Part shown: positions 20,749 to 64,000 of the stretch, in pieces
Layout of the letters: each line of letters begins with the position of its first letter
Numbering within the stretch: position 1 is the stretch's first letter
Source: Calothrix anomala FACHB-343
GTDB lineage: Bacteria; Cyanobacteriota; Cyanobacteriia; Cyanobacteriales; Nostocaceae
NCBI RefSeq assembly: GCF_014696435.1
Contig: NZ_JACJQG010000006.1
Location: forward strand, 124,001-188,000
Length of the DNA: 64,000 bases
Reading direction: 5' to 3'
Program-made: the position numbers and the translations under genes
Notes under the pieces: generated by a model
The model's input: the letters and a program-made list of their open reading frames with translations, nothing else
Databases searched by the model: none
Told to the model about the DNA's origin: nothing

Positions 20749-20750
20749 TT

Positions 20751-22842: not shown

Positions 22843-22891
22843 ATCCACATCATATTTTTTGTGAAATGGGATGACAACTGACAATTGTAGA

Positions 22892-22909: not shown

Positions 22910-22934
22910 TCTACTACTGACAGGTACAACGCAA

Positions 22935-22964: not shown

Positions 22965-23003
22965 AGAGACATCAATTGTCAGTGATGAAAGAAGACTGAC
23001 GAA

Positions 23004-27710: not shown

Positions 27711-27739
27711 ATGGGTAATAGAATTTGCTTATTACCCAT
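27711..27739 (+). promoter_or_regulatory. Inverted repeat over the ketoacyl-synthase start
   Basis: ATGGGTAATA and TATTACCCAT are separated by nine bases. The second arm contains the preferred start codon of the downstream gene. In the mRNA the hairpin would bury the start, so it could lower or regulate translation. No Shine-Dalgarno sequence is visible outside it. Confidence 0.5.
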
Positions 27740-29431: not shown

Positions 29432-30232
29432 ATGAAGTGGATCAAGCAATCTATCAGTTTAGTAGCATTTTCAATACCAGTATTTTTGGAACTTGCTACT
29501 ATTCCTACTATAGCAACACAGGCACAAGCTCAGGTTAACTCAGGATCGCTGACTCAACAGCCAACACAGTCTTTGCTCATTAGTCAAGCATTCAAACCAC
29601 CACAGCGCGGATCGGCTCCTCCCAGTGCTGGTGGTGCTACCCGTGGCTCCTCTTATTGCGTACAAAAAAATCAGTTATTGACCAACTTACTACCAAAAGA
29701 AAATACCGGCTTAACTTTTTCAGAACGTCCCAGCTTTTTTTGGCATGTGCCTAAAGATACAGTTAAAACAGCGCAATTTTCCATCTTGGTAGAAGGCGAT
29801 GAGAATAGCATAGAAGATGATGTAGTTTATGAAACAACTTTAAATGTGCCAACTCAACCAGGGATTATGAAATTTACCCTGCCAGAGAATAGCCCTCCTT
29901 TAAAAGTAGGTAAGCGTTACCACTGGTATTTGACTTTAGTTTGCGATCGCCAAAATCCCCCGAAAAATCCGAGTCTAGAAGGATGGGTTGAACGAGTACA
30001 ACCAGAAGCAAAACTATCAAAAGCTTTAGAACAAGCGGATTTACGCAAGCGCCCAACTCTGTATGCAGATGCAGGAATTTGGCATGAAGCAATAACTAGT
30101 TTAGTTGCCTTACGTTGTGCTGAACCAAATAATTTTAAGGTTACAGCTGATTGGCGAAAATTCTTTCAATCGGTTAATTTAAGTCAGTTTGCATCCGAAC
30201 CCATCCTTGATTGTTGTAGCAGTAAGCAATAA
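29432..30232 (+). CDS. DUF928 secreted protein
   Basis: A protein of 266 residues from the ATG at 29432, preceded by AGAGGAG; a TTG at 29414 is in frame but lies before the ribosome-binding site. A signal peptide (SLVAFSIPVF ... TQAQAQ) is followed by a low-complexity stretch and the DUF928 domain: NTGLTFSERPSFFWHVP, GIMKFTLP, LKVGKRYHWYLTLVCDR and the final GIWHEAITSLVALR. The family has no known activity and is predicted to be periplasmic. In cyanobacteria it is often encoded near CHASE2 and CHAT proteins, as here. Confidence 0.85.
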   Translation: MKWIKQSISLVAFSIPVFLELATIPTIATQAQAQVNSGSLTQQPTQSLLISQAFKPPQRGSAPPSAGGATRGSSYCVQKNQLLTNLLPKENTGLTFSERPSFFWHVPKDTVKTAQFSILVEGDENSIEDDVVYETTLNVPTQPGIMKFTLPENSPPLKVGKRYHWYLTLVCDRQNPPKNPSLEGWVERVQPEAKLSKALEQADLRKRPTLYADAGIWHEAITSLVALRCAEPNNFKVTADWRKFFQSVNLSQFASEPILDCCSSKQ

Positions 30233-30281
30233 TTTTTAATACATTACTGGTGAATTAGGCAGTCAGGTATAAAGATAATCA

Positions 30282-30423
30282 TAGGACTTACGCACCGAAC
30301 ACAAAAACCCTCACAAAGGTAGTCAAAAGTCAAAAGTCAATGGTCAAAATTCAAGTTTTTAGACTATGGACTATTGACCATTGACAAAAAGTATGAAAAA
30401 TATCTGACACTGCGTAAGTCCTA
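30282..30423. mobile_element. MITE-like element, copy C
   Basis: A full element with ends TAGGACTTACGCA and TGCGTAAGTCCTA, inverted relative to copy A, with the same internal GTCAAAAGTCAATGGTC tracts. It lies in the gap between the DUF928 and cyclase genes and disrupts nothing visible. Confidence 0.88.
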
Positions 30424-30577
30424 AATCATTAGGGCACAATATGTTGTGCCCTTTCTTATCTGTGTTGAAATATAATAAGCTTTGCAAAGAAAATAAACAT
30501 AAAAGACTGATACTGGTGACTCTAGATTTTTGATGATGCAAAATATTGTTTGCTAGTGTTATATATAATTCACATCT

Positions 30578-30651
30578 GTAGGTTGGGTTGAGGAACCAAA
30601 CCCAACATTTGCGCGAGTTTGTTGAGTTTCACTACGTCCAAACCAACCGAC
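30578..30651. repeat. Dispersed inverted repeat, GTAGGTTGGGTT family
   Basis: A third family member. GTAGGTTGGGTTGAGGAACC is followed by AAACCCAACA, with a decayed right arm (AAACCAACCGAC). Confidence 0.75.
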
Positions 30652-30763
30652 AATTTATCCTTAACTGAATAATATTGGTATTTATCTAGTAGAAAATTAA
30701 GTAAGAAAAAAATTTCATCAGTGCAATATTTAACTAATTAAAACTCAGGAATCAGGATTAAAT

Positions 30764-33016: not shown

Positions 33017-33276
33017 TGGGCATGGGGCATTGGGCATTGGGCATAAAAATTCGCTGATTTCTGCTCTCTGTCTTTTTTAAGGAGTTTCATAAAGTCCTTC
33101 TGCCCTTCGGGTTCGCCACTTGCTTTATGCCGGGGAACCCGTCCACCGCAGTGGCTCACCTCCTGCCCTCTGCCTTTCTTGATAAAGTATTAAAACAATA
33201 GCTAGTATATGTGATTTTACTGGTATTATATTCCGGTAAACGTGTTTTAGCTATGAATGGAATGGAGTGCCTGTAA
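33017..33276. other. Intergenic repeats between cyclase and CHAT genes
   Basis: The stretch starts with GGGCATTGGGCATTGGGCAT units. A dispersed inverted repeat follows at about 33108-33160 (CGGGTTCGCCACTTGC ... GCAGTGGCTCACC), of a type widespread in filamentous cyanobacteria. A leftward or rightward promoter is not evident. Confidence 0.6.
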
Positions 33277-36200
33277 ATGCAAAGGCGATTTTTGCAGGGT
33301 TTTAGTAGCCGCACTCTGACTGTATTACTCACCTTGATATTTTTGTCTGAATCGGTAGTGTCAGCAGGTGGTAAGAACCTCCAACTAGCCCAAACAAACA
33401 CACCTGCAAACCAAAATACCCAGACAGAAAACCAAAAAGCTGCTCAACGAGTTCAAAAACTCTTTGAGGAAGCAGAACAACTCAGTAAACAACAAACCCC
33501 AGATTCACTACAACGGGCAATGCAAAAGTATGAAGAAATATTGCAAATTGCTCGTAAATTAGGCGATCGCTTATTAGAACATAACACTCTTTATCTCATA
33601 GGTAGTGCTTATTCTGAGCGCAGCGAACACGAGAAAGCGCTGACATATTATCAGCAAGCCCTAAATATTATTCAAGAACTGAAAAAACCCATACCACAAG
33701 CGAGAACTCTGTGGTCAATCGCCACCAGTTACTCTTATTTATGGCAAAAGCAAAAAGCACTAGAATATTACAACCAAGCTTTATCCATATTTCAAGCCGA
33801 GAAAGCTAATGATATGGTTGCGATCGCTCTCTTAACTATGGGTATGGTTTATGAAAATATAGGTGAAAGCAAAAAAGCGTTGGATTATGTCAATCAAGCT
33901 TTAACTATTCAACGCAGTCAAAACGATAGTCAAGCTCAGACTACAACCTTCTCTATTTTAGCAGGAATTTACAATTCTCTAGGTGAAAAGCAAAAAGCAC
34001 TCTCTTGCTTAAATCAAGCTTTAGAGATTCACCGTCAAAGAAATAATCTCGATGGTCAAGCTGATATTCTCACTAAAATGAGTACAATCTATGTCTCCTT
34101 AGACGATTATCTCCAAGCCAGAGAATTATTAAACCAAGCACTGCAACTCAATCAAAAAGGTTCTCAAAGCAATTTAGTAAATCAGGTAACTATTTTCCTG
34201 AGCTTAGGTGTAATTTATGTTTTTGAGGGTAATTATCAGCAAGCTTTAAATTACTATAATCAAGCGCGATCGCTATCGCAAAAAATAGTCAGACCAGATT
34301 TAGAAGCTACTGTACTTTCTCAAATCAAACATATTTACGAATCATTAGGACAGCTAGATGAAGCATTGGCTTATTTAAAAGCAGCACAAAAATTACAGCA
34401 GAAAATTAACGATCGTTCAGCAGAAGCCAGCACCTTAAACTCAATTGCCAAGCTTTATCAATCTCAGGGTGAATATCAAACAGCGCTGAATATTTATAAC
34501 CAAGCTTTAGAGATACAACGTCAGATTAAAGACATACCCCAGGAAGCTAGAACTCTGGGTAATATAGCTTATCTTTACAGATTATTAGGTGAATATCAAT
34601 TAAGTTTAGATAACTATAACCAGGCGCTCAAAATATTTGAAAAAATAGAAAATAATAGAGATATAGCCCAAATTATGACAGAAATTGGCTTGACTTACTT
34701 GACAGCCAAAGATTATGATAATGCGCTGAAATATTATAACCAAGCGCTACCTTTATGGCGGCAACAAGGGCAAATTGATGGTGAAATACTCACGCTAATT
34801 GGCCTCACTAAAACCTATGATTATTTAAAGGATTATCAGCAAGCATTGTCAGCAGCTAATCAAGGATTGTCTTTAGCAAGAGAGAAAAATAATCTTGCTT
34901 TTGAGGTGACTATGCTTGGTTATCAAGCAACCGCTTACCAAAGATTAGGCGATTATCAAAAAGCGCTTTCTTTAGCTCAAGAAGCTGTGACTAAATCGCA
35001 AAAAGTAGGCGCGCGTCAAGTGCAAGCGAATGCTTTATATGGTTTGGGCGATGCCTATAAGGATTTAAAAGAGTACCAAAAAGCTATAGACGCTTATAAA
35101 CAAGAACTGACTATCAGACAAGAAATAGGCGATCGCAATGGACAAGCCCATACATTATATAGAATTGCACAGACCGAACGCGATCGCGATCGATTAGCAT
35201 CCGCCCGCAGTCAAATAGAAGCTGCAATCGCAATTTTGGAAAATATCCGCACCCAAGTTACCAGCCAAGACTTACGCACCTCATACTTTGCCTCAGTCCA
35301 GAGATATTATGAGTTATACATTGACTTATTGATGCAGTTGCACAAACAGCAACCATCTCAAGGCTATCATGCCCTAGCATTACAAGCTAGCGAACGAGCT
35401 CGCGCTCGCACCCTCTTAGAGTTGCTCACAGAAGCTAATGCAGATATTCGTCAAGGTGTAGATCCGCAGCTACTAGCAGCAGAACGCAACTTACAACAAC
35501 AGCTAGATGCTTTAGAAAAACGGCGGCTAAAATTACTAAGCGGTAAATATACTCCTACCCAAGCGCAAAACTTGGAACAAGAAACCGCATCAATTCTCGA
35601 ACAGTATCGCCAGCTGCAAGCCAAAATTAGGGCTACGAGTCCTCGTTATGCAGCTCTTACACAACCGCAAACCCTCTCATTGCAACAAATTCAGTCTGCT
35701 GTACTGGATGAAAATACCTTACTACTAGAGTATTCTTTGGGTGAAGAACGCAGTTACCTTTGGGCGGTGACGAAAAACAGCATTAGCAGTTACGAACTAC
35801 CCAAACGCGCAGAAATTGCGGCTGCGGTGGAAAAATTGCGCAATATTGTCACTGTAAGAATTCCCAGAAAAGGAGATAAAGAAGCTAAAGCTCTATCAGA
35901 GTTGATATTAGCACCAGTCGCCCAGCAATTAGGACAGCGCCGTTTAGTTATCGTTGCTGATGGGGTTTTGCAATATGTACCGTTTGCGGCTCTCCACACA
36001 CCTAACTCTACTAAAAACAGCTATGAACCATTAGCCGTCAACCATGAGATTGTTACCCTCCCTTCAGCCTCGACAATCGCCGTACTTAGACAAGAAACTA
36101 CTACAAGCCAAACTGCTCCGAAAACATTAGCTGTAATTGCCGATCCGATTTTTTCAGCTAGCGACGAACGAGTCAAGGGAACAACGCCAAGTCAACAAAA

Positions 36201-36840
36201 CAACAATCAAAACCTCGACTTACAACAACTGAGCAAGTCAGCACGCACAGCAAACATCGAATTCCGGCGCTTACCATTTACCCGCCAAGAAGCTGAGACT
36301 ATTTTGTCTTTAGTACCAGAACGAGAGCGCAAACAAGCCTTTGATTTTGCGGCGAATCGAGCTACAGCTACCGATGGGGAATTGAGTCAATATCGTATAG
36401 TACATTTTGCCACTCATGGCATTCTCAACAGTGAAAATCCAGAATTATCAGGGGTAGTGCTGTCGTTGTTTGATGAAAATGGTAAACCCCAAAATGGTTT
36501 TTTACGGCTGCATGATATTTTCAACCTGAAGCTACCAGCAGAACTAGTGGTACTTAGCGCTTGTGAAACTGGTTTAGGTGAAGAAGTCAAAGGAGAAGGA
36601 TTAATTGGCTTGACAAGAGGGTTTATGTATGCAGGTAGTTCCAGAGTTGTAGTTAGTTTGTGGAATGTCGATGACGAAGCTACCGCAGAATTAATGAAGA
36701 AATTTTATAAATTTATGTTAGAGGATAAATTAAAACCTGCGGCAGCGCTACGATCTGCACAGATAGAAATGTGGCGAGATCCTAAGTATCGCGCACCTTA
36801 TTTCTGGGCGGCTTTTACTCTTCAAGGTGAATGGCGGTGA
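33277..36840 (+). CDS. Secreted TPR-CHAT protease-like protein 1
   Basis: A protein of 1187 residues. An N-terminal hydrophobic signal (TVLLTLIFLSESVVSAG) predicts export. About 14 tetratricopeptide units follow (about 60-660), many with the signature KALxYYNQALxI. A coiled-coil region (SERARARTLLELLTEA, LEKRRLKLL) precedes the C-terminal CHAT domain (about 860-1187). The caspase-like dyad is intact: His1047 in HFATHG and Cys1096 in LSACETGLGE. CHAT domains are C14-fold proteases; known ones act on partner proteins after activation. Here the TPRs should be the sensor or docking part. The next gene is a full-length paralog. Confidence 0.93.
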   Translation: MQRRFLQGFSSRTLTVLLTLIFLSESVVSAGGKNLQLAQTNTPANQNTQTENQKAAQRVQKLFEEAEQLSKQQTPDSLQRAMQKYEEILQIARKLGDRLLEHNTLYLIGSAYSERSEHEKALTYYQQALNIIQELKKPIPQARTLWSIATSYSYLWQKQKALEYYNQALSIFQAEKANDMVAIALLTMGMVYENIGESKKALDYVNQALTIQRSQNDSQAQTTTFSILAGIYNSLGEKQKALSCLNQALEIHRQRNNLDGQADILTKMSTIYVSLDDYLQARELLNQALQLNQKGSQSNLVNQVTIFLSLGVIYVFEGNYQQALNYYNQARSLSQKIVRPDLEATVLSQIKHIYESLGQLDEALAYLKAAQKLQQKINDRSAEASTLNSIAKLYQSQGEYQTALNIYNQALEIQRQIKDIPQEARTLGNIAYLYRLLGEYQLSLDNYNQALKIFEKIENNRDIAQIMTEIGLTYLTAKDYDNALKYYNQALPLWRQQGQIDGEILTLIGLTKTYDYLKDYQQALSAANQGLSLAREKNNLAFEVTMLGYQATAYQRLGDYQKALSLAQEAVTKSQKVGARQVQANALYGLGDAYKDLKEYQKAIDAYKQELTIRQEIGDRNGQAHTLYRIAQTERDRDRLASARSQIEAAIAILENIRTQVTSQDLRTSYFASVQRYYELYIDLLMQLHKQQPSQGYHALALQASERARARTLLELLTEANADIRQGVDPQLLAAERNLQQQLDALEKRRLKLLSGKYTPTQAQNLEQETASILEQYRQLQAKIRATSPRYAALTQPQTLSLQQIQSAVLDENTLLLEYSLGEERSYLWAVTKNSISSYELPKRAEIAAAVEKLRNIVTVRIPRKGDKEAKALSELILAPVAQQLGQRRLVIVADGVLQYVPFAALHTPNSTKNSYEPLAVNHEIVTLPSASTIAVLRQETTTSQTAPKTLAVIADPIFSASDERVKGTTPSQQNNNQNLDLQQLSKSARTANIEFRRLPFTRQEAETILSLVPERERKQAFDFAANRATATDGELSQYRIVHFATHGILNSENPELSGVVLSLFDENGKPQNGFLRLHDIFNLKLPAELVVLSACETGLGEEVKGEGLIGLTRGFMYAGSSRVVVSLWNVDDEATAELMKKFYKFMLEDKLKPAAALRSAQIEMWRDPKYRAPYFWAAFTLQGEWR

Positions 36841-36860
36841 GAATTTAAAAGTGAAAATAG

Positions 36861-36895
36861 TGTTGACTGTTGACTGTTGACTGTTGACTGTTGAC
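36861..36895. repeat. TGTTGAC heptanucleotide array, 5 copies
   Basis: Five exact tandem TGTTGAC units lie in the 90-bp gap between the two CHAT genes, followed by TCTGAAGAGAG. They could include the ribosome-binding region or spacing for the second gene. Confidence 0.9.
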
Positions 36896-36930
36896 TCTGA
36901 AGAGAGATTTTCTCGTGAATGGCTTAGTTA

Positions 36931-39900
36931 ATGCAAAGGAACTCAAACTTCATGCCCAGGCAACTTAGATCAAATTTGAGCTATCGGACGATTGTTGTCT
37001 TTGTCAGCATGATTTTAGCGTCTGAATCTGTAGGCATGACAGCTAAGGCAATAAATCTAGAAATTGCCCAAAAACCAACAAATACAACTCAAAATTTGAC
37101 TCCGGCACAAGAAAGTGCCAAAAATCAAGCAACGCAACTCATACAAGCAGCAGATAAACTTCTAGAACAGAGAACAGCTACATCTTTACAACAGGCTGTG
37201 GCTAAATACTTAGAAGCGTTAAAAATTTGGCGGGAAATAGGCGATCGCTCTCAAGTAGCTGCCACACTGGCTAGTATCGGGAATGCCTATTATCTACAAA
37301 GCGAAACTCAAAAAGCCCTGGAATATTACAATCAAGCATTAGCGATTAGACGAGAACTCAAAGATAAATATCGCGAAGCCATGATGCTTCAGGCTATTGC
37401 TGATGTATACATGAATTTGCGAGACAATAAAACAGCACTGGAATATTACAACCAAGCTTTACCAATATTTCGCACTGAGAAACAACCTTTTTTTGAGGCT
37501 GTGACTTTGATTGGTATTGGGAGAGTTTATTTTAATACTGGTGAAACCAAAAAAGCGCTGGAATATTACAATCAAGCTTTAGAAGTTCAGCGTGCTAGTA
37601 ACAATTTAGCAGCACAAGTTTATACCCTAGAAATTATTGCTAGAGTCTACACTCAATATGGTGAGCCGCAAAAGGCTTTAGAAGTATACAATCAAGTATT
37701 AGCTATTCAGCGTCAACAAAAATCCTTGCTGGGAGAAAGCGAAACCCTCAATGCTATTGGTACGGTATATTTCTCCTTAGGTGAGAATCAAAAAGCTAAA
37801 GAATATTTCACTCAAGCTTGGGAAATACAACGCAAGCTACCAGAAGTTAGCTTAGGTAACCAAGCAATCACTGTAATGTATCTGGGGATGAGTTCCTGGG
37901 GTGTAGGTGAACATCAAAAGGGACTCGAATATTTAAACCAAGCGCGATCGCTCATGCAAAAATTAGGTAATCGTTTTGCAGAAGCAGAAATCCTCGGACA
38001 AATCAGCATTTTGCAATCTGAACTCGGACAAAAACAGTCAGCCCTCGATGCTTTAAACCAAGCACTCAAGCTACAGCAGGAAAATAAAGATCCGGCGAGA
38101 ATTGCGGCGACAATTAATAGTATTGCAGATATTCACACTTCCTCCGGCGAATATCAAACCGCTTTGGATTTTTATAACCAAGCCCTCACAATCCAGCGTC
38201 AAATAGGCGATCGCTTGGGTGAAGGACAAACCCTAAGTTACATTGCCAAGCTTTATAATTTATTAGGCGATAGTCAGTTAAGTATTGACACTGCCAAGCA
38301 AGCTCTAGAAAAATTTCGCACTGTTGGCGATCGCACTAAAGTTGCGCAAACTCTCGATGATATCGGCAATGTTTACCGAACATTAGAAGATTATCCCCAA
38401 GCATTAGATTACTATAACCAAGCACTGCAACTGTGGCGCGAACAAGGAGCGCTATTTGCTGAATTCACTACGCTCACTGGTGTGATTAGGACTTATGAAT
38501 CATTAAAAGAATATACCAAAGCTCTGGAGACTGCTAACCAAGCACTATCATTATCACGCAAACAACAAAACAGACTCCACGAAGCTTCCGCCCTAGCTTA
38601 CTTAGGTAGAGTCTACTTAGCAGCAGGTGACGAGCAAAAAGCTCTAGATATGTTGAATCAAGCTGTGTTGAGATTTCAGCAATTGAAGATTCCCAGTGCC
38701 GAAGCTAACGTATGGGGTAATATTGCTAGAGTATACAAATCCTTAAACCAACCCCAACAAGCGATCGCTAGTTACGATCGACAACTCAAATTACAGCGCA
38801 ATTTAGGCGATCGCACTGGTGAAGCAGAAACACTTTACAATATTGCTGTGAGCGATCGCGATCGCCAGAATCTAGAGGCGGCTCGGACGCAAATAGAGTC
38901 TACAATTAAAATCATCGAAGATATCCGTACCAGAGTCACCAGTCAAGAATTACGTACCTCTTACTTCGCCTCAGTCCAAAAATATTATGAATTCTACATC
39001 GACCTGTTGATGCAGTTGCACAAACAGCAACCATCTCAAGGTTACAATGCTCTAGCCCTCCAAGCCAGCGAACGCGCCCGCGCTCGCAGTCTCTTAGATT
39101 TGCTAACTGAGGCTCATGCAGACATCCGTCAGGGTGTAGATCCTCAGCTACTCGCCACCGAACGCAACCTGCAACAACAACTAGATGCTTTAGAAAAACG
39201 ACGGCTGAAATTACTGGGTGAGGAATCCAGCAAAGCGCAAGTACAACAATTAGAACAAGAAACCGCCACCATTCTCGAACAATATCGGCAAATACAAGCC
39301 AAAATTAGAGCTACTAGCCCGCGTTATGCTGCTCTCACCCAGCCGCAAACCCTCTCACTCACACAAATTCAATCCTCTGTCCTCGATGATAATACTCTGC
39401 TATTAGAATATGCTTTGGGAGAAGAACGCAGTTACCTCTGGGCTGTGACTAAAAATAGCATTACTAGCTACGAACTGCCGAAACGTGCAGAAATAGCCGC
39501 AGCAGTTCAAAGATTCCGCCAAGTTTTAACCTCACCAATTTCCCGCAGCAAACCAGGTGCTAGCGCTAATCTACTCACAAAAATGATACTGGCACCAGTA
39601 GCCCAGCAATTAGGACAACGCCGCCTAGTTATTGTAGCTGATGGAGCTTTGCAATATATACCCTTTGCTGCCTTAAATACACCCAGTCAACAAAATACTA
39701 ATAGTTATGAGCCGTTAGTAATCAACCATGAAATTGTTACCCTCCCATCAGCCTCAACAGTCGCCGTACTCCGCCAAGAAACCAATGGACGCAAAACTGC
39801 GCCGAAAACATTAGCTGTAATTGCCGATCCAATATTTTCGCCTAACGACGAGCGAGTTAAAAAAGGGGGGAACAATTCTCAAAATAGTAATCTCAACATA

Positions 39901-40524
39901 GACTTACAACAACTTAGCCGCTCTGCACGAGCCGCCAACATCAGTTTTGAGCGGTTACCATTCACGCGCCAAGAAGCTGAAACTATTCTCTCTCTAGTGC
40001 CAGCGAAAGAGCGCAAGCAAGCCTTTGATTTTGCTGCTAATCGAGCAGCAGCTACGAATATAGATTTAAGTCAGTATCGAATAATACATCTTGCTACACA
40101 TGGCATCCTCAATAGCCAAAATCCAGAATTATCGGGTGTGGTGTTGTCATTGTTTGATGAAACTGGTAAACCCCAAAATGGCTTTTTACGTCTGCATGAT
40201 ATTTTTAACCTCAAGCTACCAGCCGAACTAGTGGTACTCAGTGCTTGTGAAACTGGTTTGGGTGAAGAAGTCAAAGGTGAAGGCTTAATCGGCTTGACAA
40301 GAGGGTTTATGTATGCAGGTAGTCCCAGAGTAGTTGTTAGTTTGTGGAGTGTTGATGACGAGGCGACATCCGAATTAATGAAAAAGTTTTATGGATTCAT
40401 GTTACAAAATAACATGAATCCTGCTGCCGCACTCAGAGCAGCACAAAGAGAAATGTGGCGCGATCGCAAATATCAATCACCCTATTTTTGGGCTGCTTTT
40501 ACTCTCCAAGGTGAATGGAAGTGA
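36931..40524 (+). CDS. Secreted TPR-CHAT protease-like protein 2
   Basis: A protein of 1197 residues, a tandem paralog of the preceding gene. It has the same layout: an export signal (TIVVFVSMILASESVGM), about 14 tetratricopeptide units, a coiled-coil linker and the CHAT domain, with His1057 in HLATHG and Cys1106 in LSACETGLGE. An ATG at 36952 is an alternative start. The TPR halves differ clearly, whereas the linker and CHAT parts are nearly the same (for example GLIGLTRGFMYAGS in both). This points to duplication with the sensor part diverging, or later gene conversion of the catalytic part. A solitary tnpB follows 234 bp downstream. Confidence 0.93.
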   Translation: MQRNSNFMPRQLRSNLSYRTIVVFVSMILASESVGMTAKAINLEIAQKPTNTTQNLTPAQESAKNQATQLIQAADKLLEQRTATSLQQAVAKYLEALKIWREIGDRSQVAATLASIGNAYYLQSETQKALEYYNQALAIRRELKDKYREAMMLQAIADVYMNLRDNKTALEYYNQALPIFRTEKQPFFEAVTLIGIGRVYFNTGETKKALEYYNQALEVQRASNNLAAQVYTLEIIARVYTQYGEPQKALEVYNQVLAIQRQQKSLLGESETLNAIGTVYFSLGENQKAKEYFTQAWEIQRKLPEVSLGNQAITVMYLGMSSWGVGEHQKGLEYLNQARSLMQKLGNRFAEAEILGQISILQSELGQKQSALDALNQALKLQQENKDPARIAATINSIADIHTSSGEYQTALDFYNQALTIQRQIGDRLGEGQTLSYIAKLYNLLGDSQLSIDTAKQALEKFRTVGDRTKVAQTLDDIGNVYRTLEDYPQALDYYNQALQLWREQGALFAEFTTLTGVIRTYESLKEYTKALETANQALSLSRKQQNRLHEASALAYLGRVYLAAGDEQKALDMLNQAVLRFQQLKIPSAEANVWGNIARVYKSLNQPQQAIASYDRQLKLQRNLGDRTGEAETLYNIAVSDRDRQNLEAARTQIESTIKIIEDIRTRVTSQELRTSYFASVQKYYEFYIDLLMQLHKQQPSQGYNALALQASERARARSLLDLLTEAHADIRQGVDPQLLATERNLQQQLDALEKRRLKLLGEESSKAQVQQLEQETATILEQYRQIQAKIRATSPRYAALTQPQTLSLTQIQSSVLDDNTLLLEYALGEERSYLWAVTKNSITSYELPKRAEIAAAVQRFRQVLTSPISRSKPGASANLLTKMILAPVAQQLGQRRLVIVADGALQYIPFAALNTPSQQNTNSYEPLVINHEIVTLPSASTVAVLRQETNGRKTAPKTLAVIADPIFSPNDERVKKGGNNSQNSNLNIDLQQLSRSARAANISFERLPFTRQEAETILSLVPAKERKQAFDFAANRAAATNIDLSQYRIIHLATHGILNSQNPELSGVVLSLFDETGKPQNGFLRLHDIFNLKLPAELVVLSACETGLGEEVKGEGLIGLTRGFMYAGSPRVVVSLWSVDDEATSELMKKFYGFMLQNNMNPAAALRAAQREMWRDRKYQSPYFWAAFTLQGEWK

Positions 40525-40758: not shown

Positions 40759-41997
40759 ATGTATAGAGCAATTAAAGTTAGAATTTATCCCACTGACGAG
40801 CAAGAATCATATTTAGCTCAATGTTTTGGTAATACCCGTTGGTTGTGGAATTATATGCTCAATGCTACAACCACAGCATATAAAGAAACAGGGAAAGGGC
40901 TTTCCAAAGCTGCAATGGACAAATTGTTGCCAGGATTAAAGAAAGAATATGAATGGTTAGGACTTGCATACTCTCAAGTATTGCAACGAGTAACATTCAA
41001 TCTTTCAAGTGCGTTTGTCAACTTCTTTGAAGGTCGTGCTAAATACCCTAACTTTAAATCTAAACATGGTAAGCAATCGATTCAATATCCCCAAAATGTG
41101 AAACTGATGCCAGATGACTCTGTGATTAAGTTTCCTGGAAGTTTGGGATTAATGAAAGCTGTGTTTCACAAACAATTGCCTGATGCTAAATTCACAACTG
41201 TAACAATATCGAGAAATGCAGACGGTAAATATTATGCTTCTATTGTGTTTAATCAAGAGGATGAACCAGTAACCGCAATCAACAAGGCTATTGGTGTTGA
41301 CCTGGGTTTAAAGAATTTTGCAATCACTTCCGATGGTTCAAAATATGATCTACCTAAGAGGCGATTAGCAAAACTAGAAAAGAATAGAAAGCGTAAACAG
41401 AAAAAATTAGCAAGAAAGAAGGATAAAACATCTAATAAACGACAAAAGGCTAGACGCTTAGTAGCTAAAATCTCTAGCAAAATACCTAGAGTCCGTGAAG
41501 ACTTTCTACACAAGCTATCTCGCAAAATAGCATACGAAAATCAAGTAATTTGTGTAGAGGACTTGGCAGTTAAGAACATGGTTAAAAATCCCAACTTGGC
41601 AAAAGCTATCAGTGACCAAGGGTGGGGAATGTTTCTAACCATGCTTAAGTACAAAGCTGAGAGATTTGGTCATACCTACCAAGAAATAGGACGTTTCTTC
41701 CCATCATCTCAGCTTTGTAGTGAAACTCTACTCCCAATACCAGTGCTGCAAAACGGTTATGATTCATTAGGTGTTAGGTTTGTATATTGTCCGCACTGCC
41801 AAAAGCAGCATGATAGAGACATCAATGCTGCAATAAATATTAGAAATGAAGGTTTGCGACTTTTGGAGTTAGGAACTAGCTCTTCTGCCCTTGGAGGGGA
41901 TGTAAGACCAAAATCTTCGGGACGTAAAAAATCCACAAAGGTCGAGGCAATCCCCAATGAATTGGGAAGCCTACACTCACCCGTCAGGGGAGTGTAG
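40759..41997 (+). CDS. tnpB: TnpB (IS200/IS605 OrfB, RNA-guided nuclease family)
   Basis: A protein of 412 residues. The N-terminal domain MYRAIKVRIYPTDEQESYL ... TRWLWNYML is typical. The RuvC triad is present: Asp181 in GVDLGLKNF, Glu267 in CVEDLAVKNM and Asp354 in DRDINAAINI. TnpB proteins are RNA-guided DNA nucleases that keep their element by cutting the donor-joint site. The zinc-ribbon looks altered: a single cysteine (LCSETLLPIP) stands where a CxxC is expected, though the second pair (YCPHC) is intact. No tnpA transposase gene is adjacent. The stop codon lies inside the right-end hairpin, so mRNA and guide RNA share sequence. Confidence 0.93.
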   Translation: MYRAIKVRIYPTDEQESYLAQCFGNTRWLWNYMLNATTTAYKETGKGLSKAAMDKLLPGLKKEYEWLGLAYSQVLQRVTFNLSSAFVNFFEGRAKYPNFKSKHGKQSIQYPQNVKLMPDDSVIKFPGSLGLMKAVFHKQLPDAKFTTVTISRNADGKYYASIVFNQEDEPVTAINKAIGVDLGLKNFAITSDGSKYDLPKRRLAKLEKNRKRKQKKLARKKDKTSNKRQKARRLVAKISSKIPRVREDFLHKLSRKIAYENQVICVEDLAVKNMVKNPNLAKAISDQGWGMFLTMLKYKAERFGHTYQEIGRFFPSSQLCSETLLPIPVLQNGYDSLGVRFVYCPHCQKQHDRDINAAINIRNEGLRLLELGTSSSALGGDVRPKSSGRKKSTKVEAIPNELGSLHSPVRGV

Positions 41998-54054: not shown

Positions 54055-57000
54055 ATGAAACAGGAAAGAGCATATAAAAATGCCGTCCTAGATGACCAAG
54101 AACTGCAAGAAAGTTTAAAACAAATCAATCCCAAGTTTGGTGACTTTGTAATTCGGGTAGCAGGTGAAGCCTGGGGTTTGCCACTTATTGACCAAAAAAC
54201 TAAGGCTCTGATTACCATCGCTATTGATGTCGTCAATCAGGATCATAGAGGTGCTGGCAACCCTTTCGCGGCCCATATAAATATGGCTCTCAAACAGGGA
54301 GCCACCCGCGAAGAAATTGAAGAGCTGCTGCTGTTCTTATGCGTTTATGCGGGTTTTAATAAAGTTGCGGCTTGTTTCGGCACCCTGAACCAGATTTTTG
54401 ACAATTTAAATAGCATACCAAGGACAGCAGCAATGCTTTCAGCAACCAAAGAATCAAACCAAGCTGATTATTCAGCACGGGATAGTCAAGGAAAAGTAGC
54501 CTTCTACGTCCTCCTGTGGAAACGAGATGCCATTTCCCTAGAGCTGTTTGATAATTACTGGAAAGATGTACACGGCCCAGTCTGTGCTAGATTACCCGGT
54601 CAATATCAATACTGGCAGTTTCATGTGGCTCGTAACGAAGGGTGTTTATGGCCAGAAATTCCCGGTTTAGATTATAGCTGGGACATTGAAGATAACTTTG
54701 ATGGGATTGCAGAGTTAACCTTTGAAAGTGACGCAGACCGGCAAACCTGGTTCCAAGCGTCAGCCATTCTCATGGATGACGAACACAACCTGTTTCGTAA
54801 AGCCATTGGTTATAACACCAGTCCTGGTAATTCCATCACTTATCTAGATCGTATCCCCACAGGCGATCCCAACGGTGAAGTCGGAGTCATCAAATTTCAT
54901 GTTTTAATCAAAAAAGCTGATGGTGCGAGTACAGCAGCTTTTCGCCGCTATCTGACAGACACATTTGCCCCCAAAGTCAGCAATAGCGATGTAGTACTCA
55001 AATTGCGCTTGCATCTATTTGAAGAAGTTGATAATTCTCGCCCAGATGCAGCCGGGGTGAGTCATTACGAACCACCAGTCAAGCAATATCATGCAGCTTG
55101 TGAAATTGCTTTCTTAAATCCGTTGGACAGAGAAAAGTTTTTCGCCTCTGCTGATTATGCAGCAGCATTGCAAGATGCCGCTCAATATATCAAACAAATC
55201 CAACCTTTTTCCGAAAGGTCGGCTTATACCTTTGTATATAACAGTCAGATGACTCTCGCCGGTCAGAGGAGTGCCAAGGTAGCCGATTTAATTACTAAAA
55301 TTGGAGCTGCTAACCAAATCCAGAATGATATTGTTTCACTAATGATTAATGGTCAGACTGATTACGCAAACGGCAAAGTTTTAGCTCAGAATGGTCAAGC
55401 TGCTCTGCAAAACCACCAGCCAGTTAATAGTTCTGGATTAGGTCATTTATTGCAAGGCGTGCAGCACGTTGGTGTGACAATTCATGACATGGCTAAATCC
55501 CTCGAATTTTATACAGAAGTATTAGGAGGGAAATTAGTTGTTGGGGAAAGCGAGTTAGTAGGTGATGTCATCCAAAATACGCTGTTTCAAAAAGAAGAAT
55601 TGGAAGCATTAGCTCAAGGAATCGATCCGGAGAAAGCCGATATTCCTCATTTGCGAAGTGGCAAACAAGACGCTTTAGATGTCAAATTTATTTCTTTTGG
55701 CAATACTGTCGTTGAACTTATTTATGTGAGAGAAGCTGGCAAAGCTAACGCTCCTTATGGTTCAAGAACAAGTATTCCTTCTCACATTGGTCATGTTAAT
55801 GCCATGCACATTTCATTCAACGTTAAAGAAGGCGTTGATTTGAATGAATTTGCCAAAATCTTGGAAGAAGAATCTCACAGAAGAGGTATGAAAAATGTGG
55901 TTTGTAACCGCGTGATTCATGTCAAATCTGAAGCCGAAAGAAGAGCAGTTGCGCTGAGATACAATTCTTTTAAATTTTGGAATGAACCAGAAGCTATAGC
56001 AGCAGGCGAACCAGAAGTAGACTGGAGCAAAGACCCGATGGAAGGCTGGTCTTTGTTTTACTGCAAAGGGCCGAATGGCGAACAGTTAGAATTTAACCAA
56101 GTTACCCGCAAGGTGAAAACTCGCTTCCAAGAATCGATGGAGGAATATAACCAAGCTAACGGTACATCCTTCATTTTTCCCGACAATCAAGTTGCCAATG
56201 ACATTCTCAAAGCCAGAAGTTTTCAGCAAGTTTTAAATGGCCAAAGTTCAGGCAAGACAGGGCTATATTTCACATTTAGTATTCCTGTATATGCTGCTTG
56301 GGATATTGTTTGGGATGTCGTAAAAGACAAGATTGAAAATACATCACGATATAATCCTGAAGCCCAAGCACCGCAGATTTTGGCGAGATTCCACGATGGG
56401 ATGCTGCGACAAATGAATGCCCTGGGAATGGTTGTCAAAGAAAGAATAACTATAGATGAAAAATTAGGCTCAATCACCCATGATTTAGTAGATAATCCAC
56501 TGTTCAAGGGCAGAATAATTAACACAGTTGTCCGAGCCAAAGAGCCTCATACCCCTGTAAGTATTAGCTACACACTGAACTGGGAACCAGTGAATGCAGA
56601 AGCTATAAAAATGGTTCCAAAAATTGAAGAAAAACTTCACCAAGCAATTGAAAAATCTGTATTGCTTGCCAAAGAAGTTGCCGAAAATCAAGCAGCACAA
56701 AAAAAAGACAATTTCCAACTACAAGCGTCAACTAATAGAGGAAACTTAATGTCCAACAACTTGCCGGGAACAAATACAGACCTAGTAAAACGTTTGTTCT
56801 CCAGAGGCGAAGCATTTGATTCGGAAGGGTTCGTGACCTTTTTTACAGACACACCAGTATATCAGTTCGGCAACTTCGATGTCTGTTTAGATAAAGAGTC
56901 GATCAAAAAATCAGCCGATGCCTTCTTTAGTAAAATCGATGCCGTTTACCACGAGATCAAGAATATCTGGGAAGCAGGAGATGTGGTATTCGTAGAAATG

Positions 57001-57687
57001 GATGTGCTTTATTGGCGCAAAGACGGCTCAATGATTGCACTGCCGTGCAGTGATATTTTCCGGGTTGAAGGAGATAAATTCAGTGAACTGAGGATTTTCA
57101 TGGATGTGAATCCTGTATTTAATCCGAGAATCTCCGTACCCCAATCTGCTTCAGTACTGACAGTGAGCAAAGGGCAACGGTTGATTCCTCCGGGAACCAT
57201 GAGAAAACACTTTGCGGAGCATCCCGAAGGGAAAGAAAGAGTAGCCCAAGGATATGTGCCTAAATGGGCAACTGCTGGCCCTAAATGGTCTATAGGTAGC
57301 GAAAACGGCAGAGTAGCCTCCTCAGAACAATTAAAAGCCGTTGGGGAACTATCCCAGGCAATTATGGCCGAAGATTGGGCAAAAGTAAAAACTTATTTGA
57401 CCGATGACCTATTGTACAAAGTCGGTTCAGGTGAACCGATGTATGGCCCCAACGCTGTGGTGGATTTCTTCAAACAGACCTTTAAAACTACCGCCAAGTT
57501 TTATGGTCATGATGCCAGAAAAATTTGGGTAGAACCAGACATCATTACCATCGAAATGGATGCGAAATACGAACTGGTTCACAACAAAAAGCATGTGAAG
57601 GTTGCTTGCTGCGACATCTACCGGATGCGTGGTAACAAGGTCAGTGAATGGCGAGTTTATGCTGATATGACCCCTTGGCAAAACTGA
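54055..57687 (+). CDS. Giant fusion: CMD-EthD-EthD-VOC-SRPBCC-NTF2-NTF2
   Basis: A protein of 1210 residues made of small domains in series. They are CMD (1-118), two EthD domains (about 140-410), VOC/glyoxalase (about 461-700) and an SRPBCC/START-like cavity domain (about 734-880; FSIPVYAAWDIVWDVVKD). Two NTF2/SnoaL-like domains end it (about 905-1040 and 1086-1208). VOC metal ligands are visible in VQHVGVT, NAMHISF and GEQLEFN. Two ATG codons inside the frame, at 54433 (after GGACAGCAGCA) and 56749 (after AGAGGAAAC), look like the starts of once-separate genes and could still be used. Each part has a separate homolog nearby. By the families, it is likely a cytoplasmic enzyme complex on one small hydrophobic substrate (inference). 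Confidence 0.82.
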   Translation: MKQERAYKNAVLDDQELQESLKQINPKFGDFVIRVAGEAWGLPLIDQKTKALITIAIDVVNQDHRGAGNPFAAHINMALKQGATREEIEELLLFLCVYAGFNKVAACFGTLNQIFDNLNSIPRTAAMLSATKESNQADYSARDSQGKVAFYVLLWKRDAISLELFDNYWKDVHGPVCARLPGQYQYWQFHVARNEGCLWPEIPGLDYSWDIEDNFDGIAELTFESDADRQTWFQASAILMDDEHNLFRKAIGYNTSPGNSITYLDRIPTGDPNGEVGVIKFHVLIKKADGASTAAFRRYLTDTFAPKVSNSDVVLKLRLHLFEEVDNSRPDAAGVSHYEPPVKQYHAACEIAFLNPLDREKFFASADYAAALQDAAQYIKQIQPFSERSAYTFVYNSQMTLAGQRSAKVADLITKIGAANQIQNDIVSLMINGQTDYANGKVLAQNGQAALQNHQPVNSSGLGHLLQGVQHVGVTIHDMAKSLEFYTEVLGGKLVVGESELVGDVIQNTLFQKEELEALAQGIDPEKADIPHLRSGKQDALDVKFISFGNTVVELIYVREAGKANAPYGSRTSIPSHIGHVNAMHISFNVKEGVDLNEFAKILEEESHRRGMKNVVCNRVIHVKSEAERRAVALRYNSFKFWNEPEAIAAGEPEVDWSKDPMEGWSLFYCKGPNGEQLEFNQVTRKVKTRFQESMEEYNQANGTSFIFPDNQVANDILKARSFQQVLNGQSSGKTGLYFTFSIPVYAAWDIVWDVVKDKIENTSRYNPEAQAPQILARFHDGMLRQMNALGMVVKERITIDEKLGSITHDLVDNPLFKGRIINTVVRAKEPHTPVSISYTLNWEPVNAEAIKMVPKIEEKLHQAIEKSVLLAKEVAENQAAQKKDNFQLQASTNRGNLMSNNLPGTNTDLVKRLFSRGEAFDSEGFVTFFTDTPVYQFGNFDVCLDKESIKKSADAFFSKIDAVYHEIKNIWEAGDVVFVEMDVLYWRKDGSMIALPCSDIFRVEGDKFSELRIFMDVNPVFNPRISVPQSASVLTVSKGQRLIPPGTMRKHFAEHPEGKERVAQGYVPKWATAGPKWSIGSENGRVASSEQLKAVGELSQAIMAEDWAKVKTYLTDDLLYKVGSGEPMYGPNAVVDFFKQTFKTTAKFYGHDARKIWVEPDIITIEMDAKYELVHNKKHVKVACCDIYRMRGNKVSEWRVYADMTPWQN

Positions 57688-58880
57688 GATAATCTTAGGA
57701 GATAGTAATGTCGCAGAAAGTACTCAATCTTTTACAAGCAGCTTTTGAACAGCCAAATCTACAAGAAAAACTTCATGCTGCTGATACAGCTGAGCAATTC
57801 GTCAAGATTGCTAAAGAGAACGGCTATGAATTAACTCAACAAGAATTGGCATCAGCACTTGGGAAAGTCCATGTGGTTTTTGGCCAAGTCGTCCAGTCAA
57901 TGATGGATGAGTTGGTATCACAAGCACCAAATCAAAACGGAAAAGGCCCAGTAATAGAAAAGATTTCCGGAACAAATACAGACCTAGTAAAACGTTTGTT
58001 CTCCAGAGGCGAAGCATTTGATTCGGAAGGGTTCGTGACCTTTTTTACAGACACACCAGTATATCAGTTCGGTAACTTCGATGTCTGTTTAGATAAAGAG
58101 TCGATCAAAAAATCAGCCGATGCCTTCTTTAGTAAAATCGATGCCGTTTACCACGAAATCAAGGTGATTTGGGAAGAAGGCGATGCGGTATTCGTCGAAA
58201 TGGATGTGCTTTATTGGCGCAAGGACGGCTCGATGGTATCACTTCCTTGCTTCGATATCTTCCGGGTTGAGGGGGATAAATTCAGTGAACTGAGGATTTT
58301 CATGGATGTGAATCCTGTATTTGACCCGACTATCCCAGTTCCTGAATCCGCTTCTGTGCTGACAGTCACCCAAGGAAAGCATGTTCTGCCGCCAGGAACC
58401 ATGAGAAGACACTTTGCGGAGCATCCCGAAGGGAAAGAAAGAGTCGCCCAAGGATTTGTACCTAAATGGGCAATTGCTGGGCCTAGATGGTCTATCGACA
58501 GCGAAAATGGTAAAGTAGCCTCCTCAGAACAATTAAAAGCCGTTGGGGAACTATCCCAAGCAATTATGGCTGAAGATTGGGCAAAAGTGAAAACTTACCT
58601 GACCGATGACCTATTGTACAAAGTCGGTTCAGGCGAACCGATGTATGGGCCTAATGCCGTAGTGGATTTCTTTAAACAGACCTTTAAAACTACTGCCAAG
58701 TTTTATGGACATGATGCCAGAAAAATTTGGGTAGAACCAGACATCATCACCATTGAAATGGATGCTAAATACGAGCTGGTTCACAATAAGGAACATGTGA
58801 AGGTTGCTTGCTGCGACATCTACCGGATGCGTGGTAACAAGGTCAGCGAATGGCGAGTTTACGCTGATATGACCCCTTGG
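56767..58880 (+). repeat. Duplicated NTF2-NTF2 module, 1202-bp offset
   Basis: The segment 56767-57678, the end of the giant fusion, recurs at 57969-58880 in the next gene. The offset stays 1202 bp at both ends, so I see no net insertion or deletion. The first 190 bp or so are identical except for one base (C at 56871, T at 58073). The similarity is high enough to indicate a recent duplication or ongoing gene conversion. Confidence 0.9.
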
Positions 58881-59228
58881 GGTGCAGCTGATGGCAAAGT
58901 AGTTGCTCTGGACAAGAAAAAAAGTTCAGAAGTGTTTCCAGTAATCGTTGTTTTCCAAGTCGAAACATCAAAACAGCAGGAACTTTTGGATCACATCGTC
59001 GAGTATATGGAAACATATGTGAAGCACCAACCTGGCTTCATATCCTCTACTCTCCACAAGAGTGTGGACGGTACAAGGGTTGTCAACTATGCCCAATGGG
59101 AAAGCCCGGAATTCTTCAAAGCCTCAATTAGCGGTAAGATGCGATCGCTTGAGCCGAAGATCTTCCAGCAGTTATCACCAGATGGGCATATGTACGAAAT
59201 TTATCACCAAGCTACTACTCCGTCTTGA
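57708..59228 (+). CDS. Nif11-like leader domain fused to two NTF2 domains and ABM
   Basis: A protein of 506 residues, 20 bp after the giant fusion and with a TAGGAGA ribosome-binding site. Residues 1-65 match the Nif11/nitrile-hydratase-like leader pattern: NLLQAAFEQPNLQEKLHAAD, EQFVKIAKENGYELTQQELA. Two NTF2/SnoaL-like domains follow (about 88-215 and 270-390), copies of those ending the upstream protein. An ABM (antibiotic biosynthesis monooxygenase) domain (about 404-505; VIVVFQVETSKQQELLDHIV, QPGFISSTLHKSVDGTRVVN) ends it. Nif11 domains usually act as leader peptides of modified peptides; a fusion with enzyme-like domains is odd. No double-glycine cleavage motif is seen. Confidence 0.8.
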   Translation: MSQKVLNLLQAAFEQPNLQEKLHAADTAEQFVKIAKENGYELTQQELASALGKVHVVFGQVVQSMMDELVSQAPNQNGKGPVIEKISGTNTDLVKRLFSRGEAFDSEGFVTFFTDTPVYQFGNFDVCLDKESIKKSADAFFSKIDAVYHEIKVIWEEGDAVFVEMDVLYWRKDGSMVSLPCFDIFRVEGDKFSELRIFMDVNPVFDPTIPVPESASVLTVTQGKHVLPPGTMRRHFAEHPEGKERVAQGFVPKWAIAGPRWSIDSENGKVASSEQLKAVGELSQAIMAEDWAKVKTYLTDDLLYKVGSGEPMYGPNAVVDFFKQTFKTTAKFYGHDARKIWVEPDIITIEMDAKYELVHNKEHVKVACCDIYRMRGNKVSEWRVYADMTPWGAADGKVVALDKKKSSEVFPVIVVFQVETSKQQELLDHIVEYMETYVKHQPGFISSTLHKSVDGTRVVNYAQWESPEFFKASISGKMRSLEPKIFQQLSPDGHMYEIYHQATTPS

Positions 59229-60122
59229 AGGAGCGAGCAAACTGTCTATTGAGAGAATTCCTCGCTTTGCGATCGCTTGAGGTAAATTATTCAGATTTGT
59301 CATCAAGATATTTCTCAGGATAACTTTACCTCTTTGATTTCATAATTACGGGATGGCGTGAAAATAAAGTTCAAGATTAGGTGACGTAAACTGCTACTTG
59401 ATACCAAATTTTTGGGAATGAAAATCCGAAATTTTGCTAATATTGCCCATACTTAATTTCTCAAATAATCAAGGATTTAAAACATGACATCTGAGAAAAA
59501 AGGAGCTAATGGTAAAGTAGTTGCTCTGGACAAAGAAAAAAGTTCAGAAGTATTTCCAGTAATCGTTGTTTTCCAAGTTGAAACATCACAACAGCAGGAA
59601 CTTTTGGATAACATCGTCGAGTATATGGAAACACATGTGAAGCACCAACCTGGCTTCATATCCTCTACTCTCCACAGAAGTGTAGATGGTACTAGGGTTG
59701 TCAACTATGCTCAGTGGGAAAGTCCGGAGTTCTTCAAAGCCTCAATTAGTGGTCAGATGCGATCGCTTGAGCCGAAGATATTCCAGCAGTTATCCCCAGA
59801 CGGACACATGTACGAAATTTATCACCAAGCTATTACTCCATCTTAAAAGACGGAGAACAGTCTCTATTGGGAACATTCCTCTAGAGCTACCGACTGAAGT
59901 AAATTATTCAGATTTATCATAAAGATATTTCTCAGGATAACTTTACCTCTTTGATTTAATAATTACGGGATTGTGTGAGAATTAAGTGCTAAATTAGTTG
60001 ATCCACAATCCTCATTTATGGCAAATTCTTAGGAATTAAAACCGGAAATTTTGCTAATATCGACCATACTTACTTTCTCAAATAATCAAGGATTTAAAAC
60101 ATGGCATCTGAGAAAAAAGGTA
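58887..60122 (+). repeat. Tandem duplication spanning ABM domain and DJ-1 promoter
   Basis: The unit 58887-59504 (the ABM coding end, its downstream gap and the start of a new gene) is repeated as 59505-60122. The ABM parts align with a 618-bp offset, and the two start codons at 59484 and 60101 with 617. The intergenic parts (CAGATTTGTCATCAAGATAT and CAGATTTATCATAAAGATAT) and the TCAAATAATCAAGGATTTAA leader match as well. Confidence 0.9.
59484..59846 (+). CDS. Stand-alone ABM-domain protein
   Basis: A protein of 120 residues. Residues 1-7 (MTSEKKG) match the start of the downstream DJ-1 protein (MASEKKG), while the rest is a copy of the ABM domain that ends the preceding 506-residue protein. 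It is a dimeric alpha/beta-barrel monooxygenase-type domain; members oxidise quinone-like or heme-like substrates, but no cofactor site is evident here. The upstream 100 bp match the DJ-1 leader, so both genes should share regulation. The gene therefore looks like a product of the tandem duplication, with a start taken from its neighbour. Confidence 0.85.
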   Translation: MTSEKKGANGKVVALDKEKSSEVFPVIVVFQVETSQQQELLDNIVEYMETHVKHQPGFISSTLHRSVDGTRVVNYAQWESPEFFKASISGQMRSLEPKIFQQLSPDGHMYEIYHQAITPS

Positions 60123-63129: not shown

Positions 63130-64000
63130 ATGAACAAACTCAACTTCTCAATCTCAGATACAATCACTGGTTACGTCACTGACTTTAACCCCAGTGATAA
63201 GTCTTTTGGTATTAAAACCTCAGGCGATCAAGAATACAGAGCATACCTCACACCCACAGTTTATGCCAGAATTGCCCAAAACCTAGAAGAGCCTTATAGA
63301 GACTGTACTGGTCAAATTGAACAACTTCTAGTACCAGGGCAACATGTATTCGTCTACGGGATTTATTATCCCCAAGGAGATGGATACAAATTTGAAGCTA
63401 AGTCCCTAGTCTTCCCCAACGACAAACCCGGTTCCTATCGCCACGAAGAACCAGACTGGTGGATTAAGCAAATCCGTTCCATTGCTGATAGTTACCTCAA
63501 ATGGCAGTTTAACTATCCCGATCGCGAAATTGATTACCACGAATATCGTACATATTTACACTTGGCTGGTGGTAAGAAACGCGACGACTTCTTACAAGAA
63601 ACTGATACCATTTCTCGTCTTGTTTATGGTTTTGCTTCAGCGTTCCTGTTAACCGGTGAAGACCGCTTTCTCCAAGCAGCAGAAAGAGGCACAGATTACC
63701 TGCGCGAACACATGCGCTTCTACGATCCTGATGAAAACCTCATTTACTGGTATCACGGTGTAAAAGTTACCGGACGCAGAGAACAAAAACTACTCACCTC
63801 CGAGTTTAGCGACGACTACGACGCTATCCCCGCCTACGAACAAATTTACGCCTTAGCCGGGCCAATTCAAACCTACCGGATTACAGGCGATCCGCGCATT
63901 CTCAAAGATGCAGAGATGACTGTGGATTTATTTGATAAATTCTTCCTGGATAAAGACGGTGGTGGCTATTTCTCCCACATTGACCCGATTACCCTCGATC
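63130..64000 (+). CDS. N-acylglucosamine 2-epimerase-family protein (5' part)
   Basis: The gene starts at the ATG at 63130 and runs off the right edge after 290 codons. The first 110 residues (ISDTITGYVTDFNPSDKSFG, FVYGIYYPQGDGYKFEAKSL) are an N-terminal extension of beta-type sequence. The (alpha/alpha)6 barrel of the AGE family follows, with SRLVYGFASAFLLTGEDRFL, EHMRFYDPDENLIYWYHGVK, YDAIPAYEQIYALAGPIQTY and a GGGYFSHIDP stretch. AGE proteins interconvert N-acetylglucosamine and N-acetylmannosamine or act on related sugars. The extension is a known cyanobacterial variant, but the substrate is uncertain. Confidence 0.85.
   Translation, partial: MNKLNFSISDTITGYVTDFNPSDKSFGIKTSGDQEYRAYLTPTVYARIAQNLEEPYRDCTGQIEQLLVPGQHVFVYGIYYPQGDGYKFEAKSLVFPNDKPGSYRHEEPDWWIKQIRSIADSYLKWQFNYPDREIDYHEYRTYLHLAGGKKRDDFLQETDTISRLVYGFASAFLLTGEDRFLQAAERGTDYLREHMRFYDPDENLIYWYHGVKVTGRREQKLLTSEFSDDYDAIPAYEQIYALAGPIQTYRITGDPRILKDAEMTVDLFDKFFLDKDGGGYFSHIDPITLD

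Follow-up and report, generated by a model that had tools for sequence, protein, structure and literature searches.

A seven-domain fusion gene in an icfG-like operon of Calothrix anomala FACHB-343: a candidate tethered multi-enzyme protein

What is made from a single reading frame that joins seven small domains, and what might its product do? This question is raised by a gene in a 64,000-nucleotide stretch of the Calothrix anomala FACHB-343 genome (contig NZ_JACJQG010000006.1, positions 124,001 to 188,000; hereafter, the window). A previous sequence-only reading of the window had described one continuous 1210-residue frame carrying seven domains, and this description is borne out: the frame is single and intact, and domain matches were found in the order CMD, EthD, EthD, VOC, SRPBCC-like, NTF2, NTF2 (Table 1). 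Intact fusions in many other assemblies rule out a sequencing or assembly artefact. We propose, with confidence that is about evenly balanced, that the gene encodes a multi-enzyme fusion formed by in-frame read-through in an icfG-like operon, whose tethered pockets act on a small cyclic metabolite and from which shorter isoforms are possibly also made.

Several parts of the fusion have close counterparts in the same operon. The stand-alone CMD gene, the 518-aa gene for an EthD-EthD protein with a C-terminal NTF2-like domain (ESnoaL) and the 506-aa gene for a Nif11-NTF2-NTF2-ABM protein are evidently paralogues of fusion parts; residues 1-324 of the 518-aa protein show 82% identity to fusion residues 127-448, and the repeated tracts have 77.5-90.6% DNA identity. 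The stop codon of the 518-aa gene lies 1 nt ahead of the fusion ATG, which has no Shine-Dalgarno-like motif of its own. Translational coupling to the upstream gene is suggested because the start lies 1-2 nt past the upstream stop in 13 of the 28 fused genes preceded by a domain-bearing gene.

The fusion looks like a read-through of neighbouring genes, since start codons and sequences resembling ribosome-binding sites are present in its linkers. In the window, CCAAGGACAGCAGCA stands before Met127 and AAAGGACAGCAAGC before the stand-alone EthD gene, and AAGGACAGC from the leader of the stand-alone EthD gene is found again ahead of Met127. The codons CCA AGG ahead of Met127 are identical in 7/7 fusions compared. 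Among 29 fusions, a Shine-Dalgarno-like tetramer was found upstream of 32/53 linker Met codons versus 55/522 other internal Met codons (Fisher odds ratio 12.9; the p value of 7e-16 overstates the difference, as the sequences are related and codon make-up is uncontrolled). By junction, the motif is present in 12/20 CMD/EthD, 8/16 SRPBCC/NTF2, 5/10 VOC/NTF2 and 0/23 EthD/VOC linkers. A plausible pre-fusion state is seen in two related loci (L011 and L112; L numbers denote loci), where a CMD gene overlaps the fusion frame by 43 nt, counting from the first possible start of the frame.

Against ten relatives, the ratio of nonsynonymous to synonymous substitution (dN/dS) of the domains is 0.03-0.3 where they are well aligned and synonymous divergence (dS) is unsaturated, and that of the linkers is mostly above the domain values, up to 1.5, with a few at 0.10-0.27. 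The domains are thus under purifying selection. Unfused homologues that neighbour one another in related genomes, together with a fused frame under selection, are the features of an operon-derived multi-enzyme fusion, and both are seen here, as are start-site-like linkers.

The linkers also bear on a different account, in which the frame is a disguised polycistron: internal starts at Met127 and Met899 would give the functional products, and the full-length chain would be a minor read-through product. Separate smaller products, named by the sequence-only reading as an outcome that would refute it, are possible because linker start codons come with Shine-Dalgarno-like sequences. The fusion is also not intact everywhere, as the fused CMD is shortened in L009, L014 and L103. 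Met codons are present in 19/20 CMD/EthD junctions, the codons 121-129 rank third of 420 windows for codon identity among seven fusions, and the dS of linker 119-140 against L006, L015, L013, L098 and L101 is 0.14-0.41, compared with 0.33-0.98 for CMD and 0.93-1.32 for EthD. However, this linker has a dS of 0.52-0.67 against the other five relatives, the comparison spans just 13-22 aligned codons, and the linkers have a high content of Lys, Arg, Gln and Gly, with codon make-up uncontrolled in the Met-motif count. The EthD/VOC junctions hold a Met codon in 2/23 cases and, as they are without the motif, VOC alone could not be made from an internal start of this kind. Moreover, the duplicated EthD tract begins at window position 52481, 16 nt before the ATG, so gene conversion alone could have copied the motif; the conserved Met127 leader could reflect either a working internal start or such leader-carrying conversion. 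We regard the polycistron as unlikely, and a tethered enzyme set, with internal initiation as a serious addition, as the most likely working mode.

The sequence-only reading had suggested an assembly-line-like multifunctional enzyme or a scaffold. The idea of a multifunctional fused protein has good support, given the recurrent frame, the selection on it and the invariant VOC ligand positions, while the comparison with an assembly line in the sense of polyketide synthases (PKS) or nonribosomal peptide synthetases is not supported: the architecture differs among species, unfused gene sets occur elsewhere, and no carrier, ketosynthase or condensation domain was detected among the seven families in the 1210-aa protein (Pfam, E 0.01). 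The whole-chain structure model has a predicted template modelling score (pTM) of 0.39 with low-confidence linkers, and the predicted picture is of separately folded domains on flexible linkers with no fixed arrangement.

Possible activities are indicated by conserved positions and nearest folds. VOC residues H471, E554, H585 and E679, putative ligands that we take to be the H, E, H, E four-ligand pattern of VOC metalloenzymes, are invariant in 26/26 full-length fused copies, and CMD E38 and H74 in 17/17; a length filter kept partial domains, including the shortened CMD of the three loci above, out of these counts and of the trees. These residues are presumably catalytic, as in their families, and would fit working pockets. 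The SRPBCC part matches polyketide aromatase/cyclases, with non-cyclase proteins of the same fold scoring almost as high. In the 518-aa partner, the EthD pair matches an anthrone-oxidase-like protein and bacterial chalcone isomerase, the EthD domains taken one at a time match 4-methylmuconolactone methylisomerase, and the C-terminal part has no solved-structure relative by sequence at E 1. The NTF2 domains match limonene epoxide hydrolase (LEH), SnoaL-like cyclases and the tandem proteins Lsd19 and MonB. LEH activity of the second NTF2 domain (NTFb) is less probable than its fold would suggest, since the aspartate of the WRD motif, from what we take to be the catalytic Asp-Arg-Asp set of limonene-1,2-epoxide hydrolase, is Val in the alignment (WRVYAD). 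The CMD domain scores 37.2 bits against the PcaC equivalog TIGR02425, under the cut-off of 155.7. By analogy, these folds would suggest cyclisation, isomerisation, decarboxylation or cofactor-free oxygenation of cyclic compounds.

Under the proposed mechanism, in-frame read-through of adjacent, tandemly duplicated genes would have produced the fusion, and each domain would have its own catalytic or binding pocket. The CMD domain may act like a decarboxylase or peroxidase, the EthD pair as an isomerase, cyclase or cofactor-free oxygenase, VOC as a metal enzyme, and the SRPBCC and NTF2 domains as a cyclase, dehydratase or isomerase. Such flexibly tethered pockets, of the polyketide-cyclase or muconolactone-isomerase type, would be held by the chain at a fixed ratio and a high local concentration, and a small cyclic compound, probably aromatic, quinone- or lactone-like, would be processed by diffusion among them. 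The EthD-EthD-NTF2 and Nif11-NTF2-NTF2-ABM proteins of the operon would act jointly with the fusion, and some of the gene product may consist of shorter isoforms initiated within the frame.

Six peptide patterns, run against 84,980 species genomes of bacteria and archaea, gave 32 loci, a lower bound, all cyanobacterial by record title. Matches at E 1e-100 occur in at least 38/388 genomes of the order and at E 1e-30 in 4/9 genomes of the genus, the window genome included, and the distribution in both is patchy. Another genome search gave matches in 114/386 genomes, most of them via weak CMD-like matches only; the order-level and 386-genome tallies are lower bounds, as scoring among the matches listed was limited to two candidates per genome. 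ESnoaL, the NTF2-like domain that ends the 518-aa protein, occurs in 24/377 genomes drawn from the phylum. Outside cyanobacteria, plasmid records carry single parts only (EthD pair, 36%, and VOC, about 40% identity), and 0/25 matching plasmid records reached 80% query coverage at one place; six of these regions were opened, two of them being cyanobacterial. No literature naming a seven-domain fusion was found in the titles and abstract openings listed, which is no proof that it is unreported, as most subscription journals lay outside the search.

The sequence-only reading had proposed a search for the same architecture, which found all seven domains in this order in nine loci (the window, L005, L006, L007, L008, L009, L014, L015 and L103). 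Within this family, its statement that such domains are nearly always separate does not apply: in 30 of the 56 cyanobacterial loci parsed, EthD shares a chain with VOC, SRPBCC or a pair of NTF2 domains. These are loci rather than genomes and were chosen by similarity to the fusion, so that the ratio is not a frequency. Ten loci were omitted from parsing (eight copies of included loci, and L129 and L130 from the window's own contig), as were short genome-search loci and four proteobacterial plasmid loci. Twelve architectures were distinguished after L126 and L128 were further dropped as copies. Merging the labels of the two NTF2 domains (NTFa and NTFb), as well as a weak additional EthD match (13-16 bits), leaves ten, of which one (L117) is cut off at a contig end. 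In the remaining fusions SRPBCC, CMD or VOC is missing, or VOC is present twice (L010). VOC is fused to EthD in 25 of the 32 loci having it, and unfused genes of the same kinds, not all in each locus, are found in L018, L020, L022-L026 and L028-L032. The two consecutive VOC domains of the 1340-aa fusion in L010 (7911-11933) are sisters in the tree (100/100).

Phylogenetic trees point to an exchange of modules. The window VOC groups with L127, L013, L098, L101, L107, L014, L009 and L103 (100/98), whereas the other VOC type is present in L006 and L015, which are the closest by CMD. Because the VOC and CMD trees place the window with different relatives, modules have been exchanged, and these conflicting groupings rule out a single fusion inherited unchanged. 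Fused CMD copies cluster, with at least 15 of 17 fused copies and one single copy in a supported set of 16 among the rows listed. Within a single genome, the EthD copies pair as sisters in the window (100/98), L013 (100/98) and L012 (100/99), and less firmly in L006, L015 and L007; elsewhere, eight fused EthD copies form a separate group (96/87). Between the two EthD copies of the window dS is 0.43, versus 0.93-1.01 to L015, L013 and L006. EthD copies are thus homogenised within some genomes and CMD copies are not; a recent duplication in this genome only is ruled out, as fused CMD copies group together while EthD is homogenised. An improbable extension of these observations is a shuffled, carrier-free mini-megasynthase of cyclase-, isomerase- and decarboxylase-type pockets, in which modules are swapped between species and internal ribosome-binding sites give both the whole chain and sub-enzymes, working on a metabolite linked to icfG-type carbon regulation.

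The fusion gene is linked to an icfG-like carbon-regulation cluster. Downstream of the fusion, the operon extends into AGE, STAS and GlgX genes, the latter two on the window contig past the window end, giving together with PfpI an icfG-type linkage. PfpI, AGE, STAS and GlgX genes occur together in 33/68 distinct loci and 19/30 fused loci, and a DJ-1/PfpI gene in 23/30 fused loci, counted within the stretches fetched, many of them cut, after removal of 11 loci that were copies or the other stretch of the window. Genes like the IcfG phosphatase and the Slr1861 kinase are present in L007, L013, L156 and L165; the window contig (190175 bases) ends too early for them. The unfused loci L156 and L165 have the order ESnoaL-CMD-PfpI-AGE-STAS-GlgX-STAS-PP2C-RsbW. 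The icfG cluster of Synechocystis PCC 6803 (slr1852-slr1862) resembles the genes linked to the fusion in relatives; slr1854 presumably belongs to the PfpI family, and slr1852 would, from gene order rather than a comparison of sequences, be the NTF2-like ESnoaL. In the available text of the publications, slr1853 is a CMD gene and slr1854 a general stress protein (PMC3564720, PMC3726282), Slr1855 is an AGE-type epimerase, Slr1856 and Slr1859 are STAS-type antagonists and Slr1857 is GlgX, accompanied by the IcfG phosphatase and the Slr1861 kinase (PMC12329169, PMC8670252).

This linkage would also suit a sensory role, in which metabolite-sensing pockets feed the partner-switching regulators (STAS, kinase, phosphatase) of icfG-like genes and catalysis is secondary. 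Some loci have PP2C and RsbW-like genes besides AGE, STAS and GlgX, and the Synechocystis operon is tied to carbon regulation in the part of the source available (PMC12329169). Such a role is distinctly unlikely, as the putative metal and catalytic positions are conserved, AGE and GlgX are enzymes, and the chain is without a signalling domain (Pfam). A stress or detoxification set (VOC, DJ-1/PfpI, ABM, CMD) directed at reactive aldehydes, quinones or hydroperoxides, and not biosynthetic, draws on the frequent DJ-1/PfpI neighbour, on DoxX and NmrA genes in the Nostoc NIES-3756 cluster, and on accessible portions of two papers, where slr1854 is butanol-induced (PMC3726282) and slr1853 and slr1854 appear in an ethanol transcriptome table with ratios of 1.6-2.7 (PMC3564720). 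Yet the Synechocystis operon with Slr1855, Slr1856, GlgX and IcfG is salt-repressed, according to the text available (PMC8670252), and the cyclase-like folds point elsewhere, which makes this explanation very doubtful too.

The coordinates of the fusion and its surroundings are collected in Table 1. A 618-base tandem repeat (87% identity, 58886-60120) spans the ABM part of the 506-aa gene and the next spacer and accounts for the extra ABM gene; a 20-base leader is identical in the ABM and PfpI genes. At 57708-57938, a Nif11 leader-like domain (TIGR03798, 35.5 bits versus a cut-off of 32.3) is joined to NTF2-NTF2-ABM; Nif11 is a leader of peptide natural products, and this partnership is hence unusual. 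On the plasmid of Nostoc NIES-3756 (L056), aldose epimerase, SDR, VOC, DoxX, NHL-repeat, NmrA and AGE genes lie between the fusion and GlgX (9995-26037), and for its EthD-EthD-NTF2 frame (10419-11975) the gene table has only a 567-base hypothetical gene at the end. Elsewhere in the window, DUF928, CHASE2-cyclase and two TPR-CHAT genes (1187 and 1197 aa) stand in series at 29414-40524, CHASE2 and DUF928 genes being also close to the L056 fusion locus, and a 412-aa IS605 OrfB/TnpB-like gene lies at 40759-41997. A 412-aa ketosynthase-like gene (27711-28949), which adjoins Ycf4 and a cyclophilin-like gene, was rejected as a PKS partner, as no ketosynthase was seen by eye among the 16 families recurring in at least three of the 33 loci compared, rarer families not being read.

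Table 1. Features of the fusion gene and its operon (window positions)
Feature	Position	Strand	Remarks
Fusion gene	54055..57687	+	1210 aa, 136 kDa
CMD domain	54073..54402	+	residues 7-116
EthD domain a	54478..54909	+	residues 142-285
EthD domain b	54928..55344	+	residues 292-430
VOC domain	55441..56184	+	residues 463-710; putative metal ligands H471, E554, H585, E679
SRPBCC-like domain	56263..56697	+	residues 737-881; aromatase/cyclase-like fold
NTF2/SnoaL domain a (NTFa)	56776..57123	+	residues 908-1023
NTF2/SnoaL domain b (NTFb)	57352..57675	+	residues 1100-1207; limonene-epoxide-hydrolase-like fold
AAGGA and ATG in CMD/EthD linker (Met127)	54420..54435	+	ribosome-binding-site- and start-like, putative former EthD gene; possible internal start
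GAGGA and ATG in SRPBCC/NTF2 linker (Met899)	56738..56751	+	putative former or possible internal start
Stand-alone CMD gene, 112 aa	51529..51867	+	86% identity to fusion residues 7-115
EthD-EthD and C-terminal NTF2-like domain (ESnoaL), 518 aa	52497..54053	+	
Nif11-NTF2-NTF2-ABM protein, 506 aa	57708..59228	+	NTF2 pair 87% identity to fusion residues 878-1208
Stand-alone ABM gene, 120 aa	59484..59846	+	tandemly duplicated from the ABM part of the 506-aa gene, 92% identity
DJ-1/PfpI gene, 211 aa	60101..60736	+	frequent neighbour
AGE (GlcNAc 2-epimerase)-like gene, 5' part	63130..64000	+	ends outside the window at 64956

Ranging from separate genes up to chains of seven domains, the family is a natural graded series in which to ask why bacteria fuse pathway enzymes, and the ribosome-binding-site-like sequences in its linkers raise the question of whether one frame gives one protein or several. 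It also places a metabolic gene set, itself unexplained, at a carbon-regulation locus, and the first genes of that locus lack an explained function in the available text of published descriptions; those descriptions, to the same extent, contain no EthD, VOC, SRPBCC or seven-domain fusion. Among known enzymes, the aromatase/cyclases TcmN, ZhuI and WhiE-VI have an identity of 13-16%, and no PKS was seen among the recurrent neighbours of the fusion. The resemblance to the LEH-like polyether epoxide hydrolases Lsd19 and MonBI/MonBII is confined to the fusion tail, with 8-10% identity, a root-mean-square deviation of 17-19 A and, in NTFb, replacement of one presumed LEH catalytic aspartate, but these proteins likewise have paired NTF2-fold domains (Foldseek E 3e-9 to 5e-8). 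PcaDC and PcaCD, natural fusions of the muconolactone pathway, differ from the protein described here in their other partner domains and in NCBIfam scores (43.7 versus a cut-off of 390 bits and 24.4 versus 430, respectively), with a match over the CMD part only; in them, as here, CMD is joined to another enzyme.

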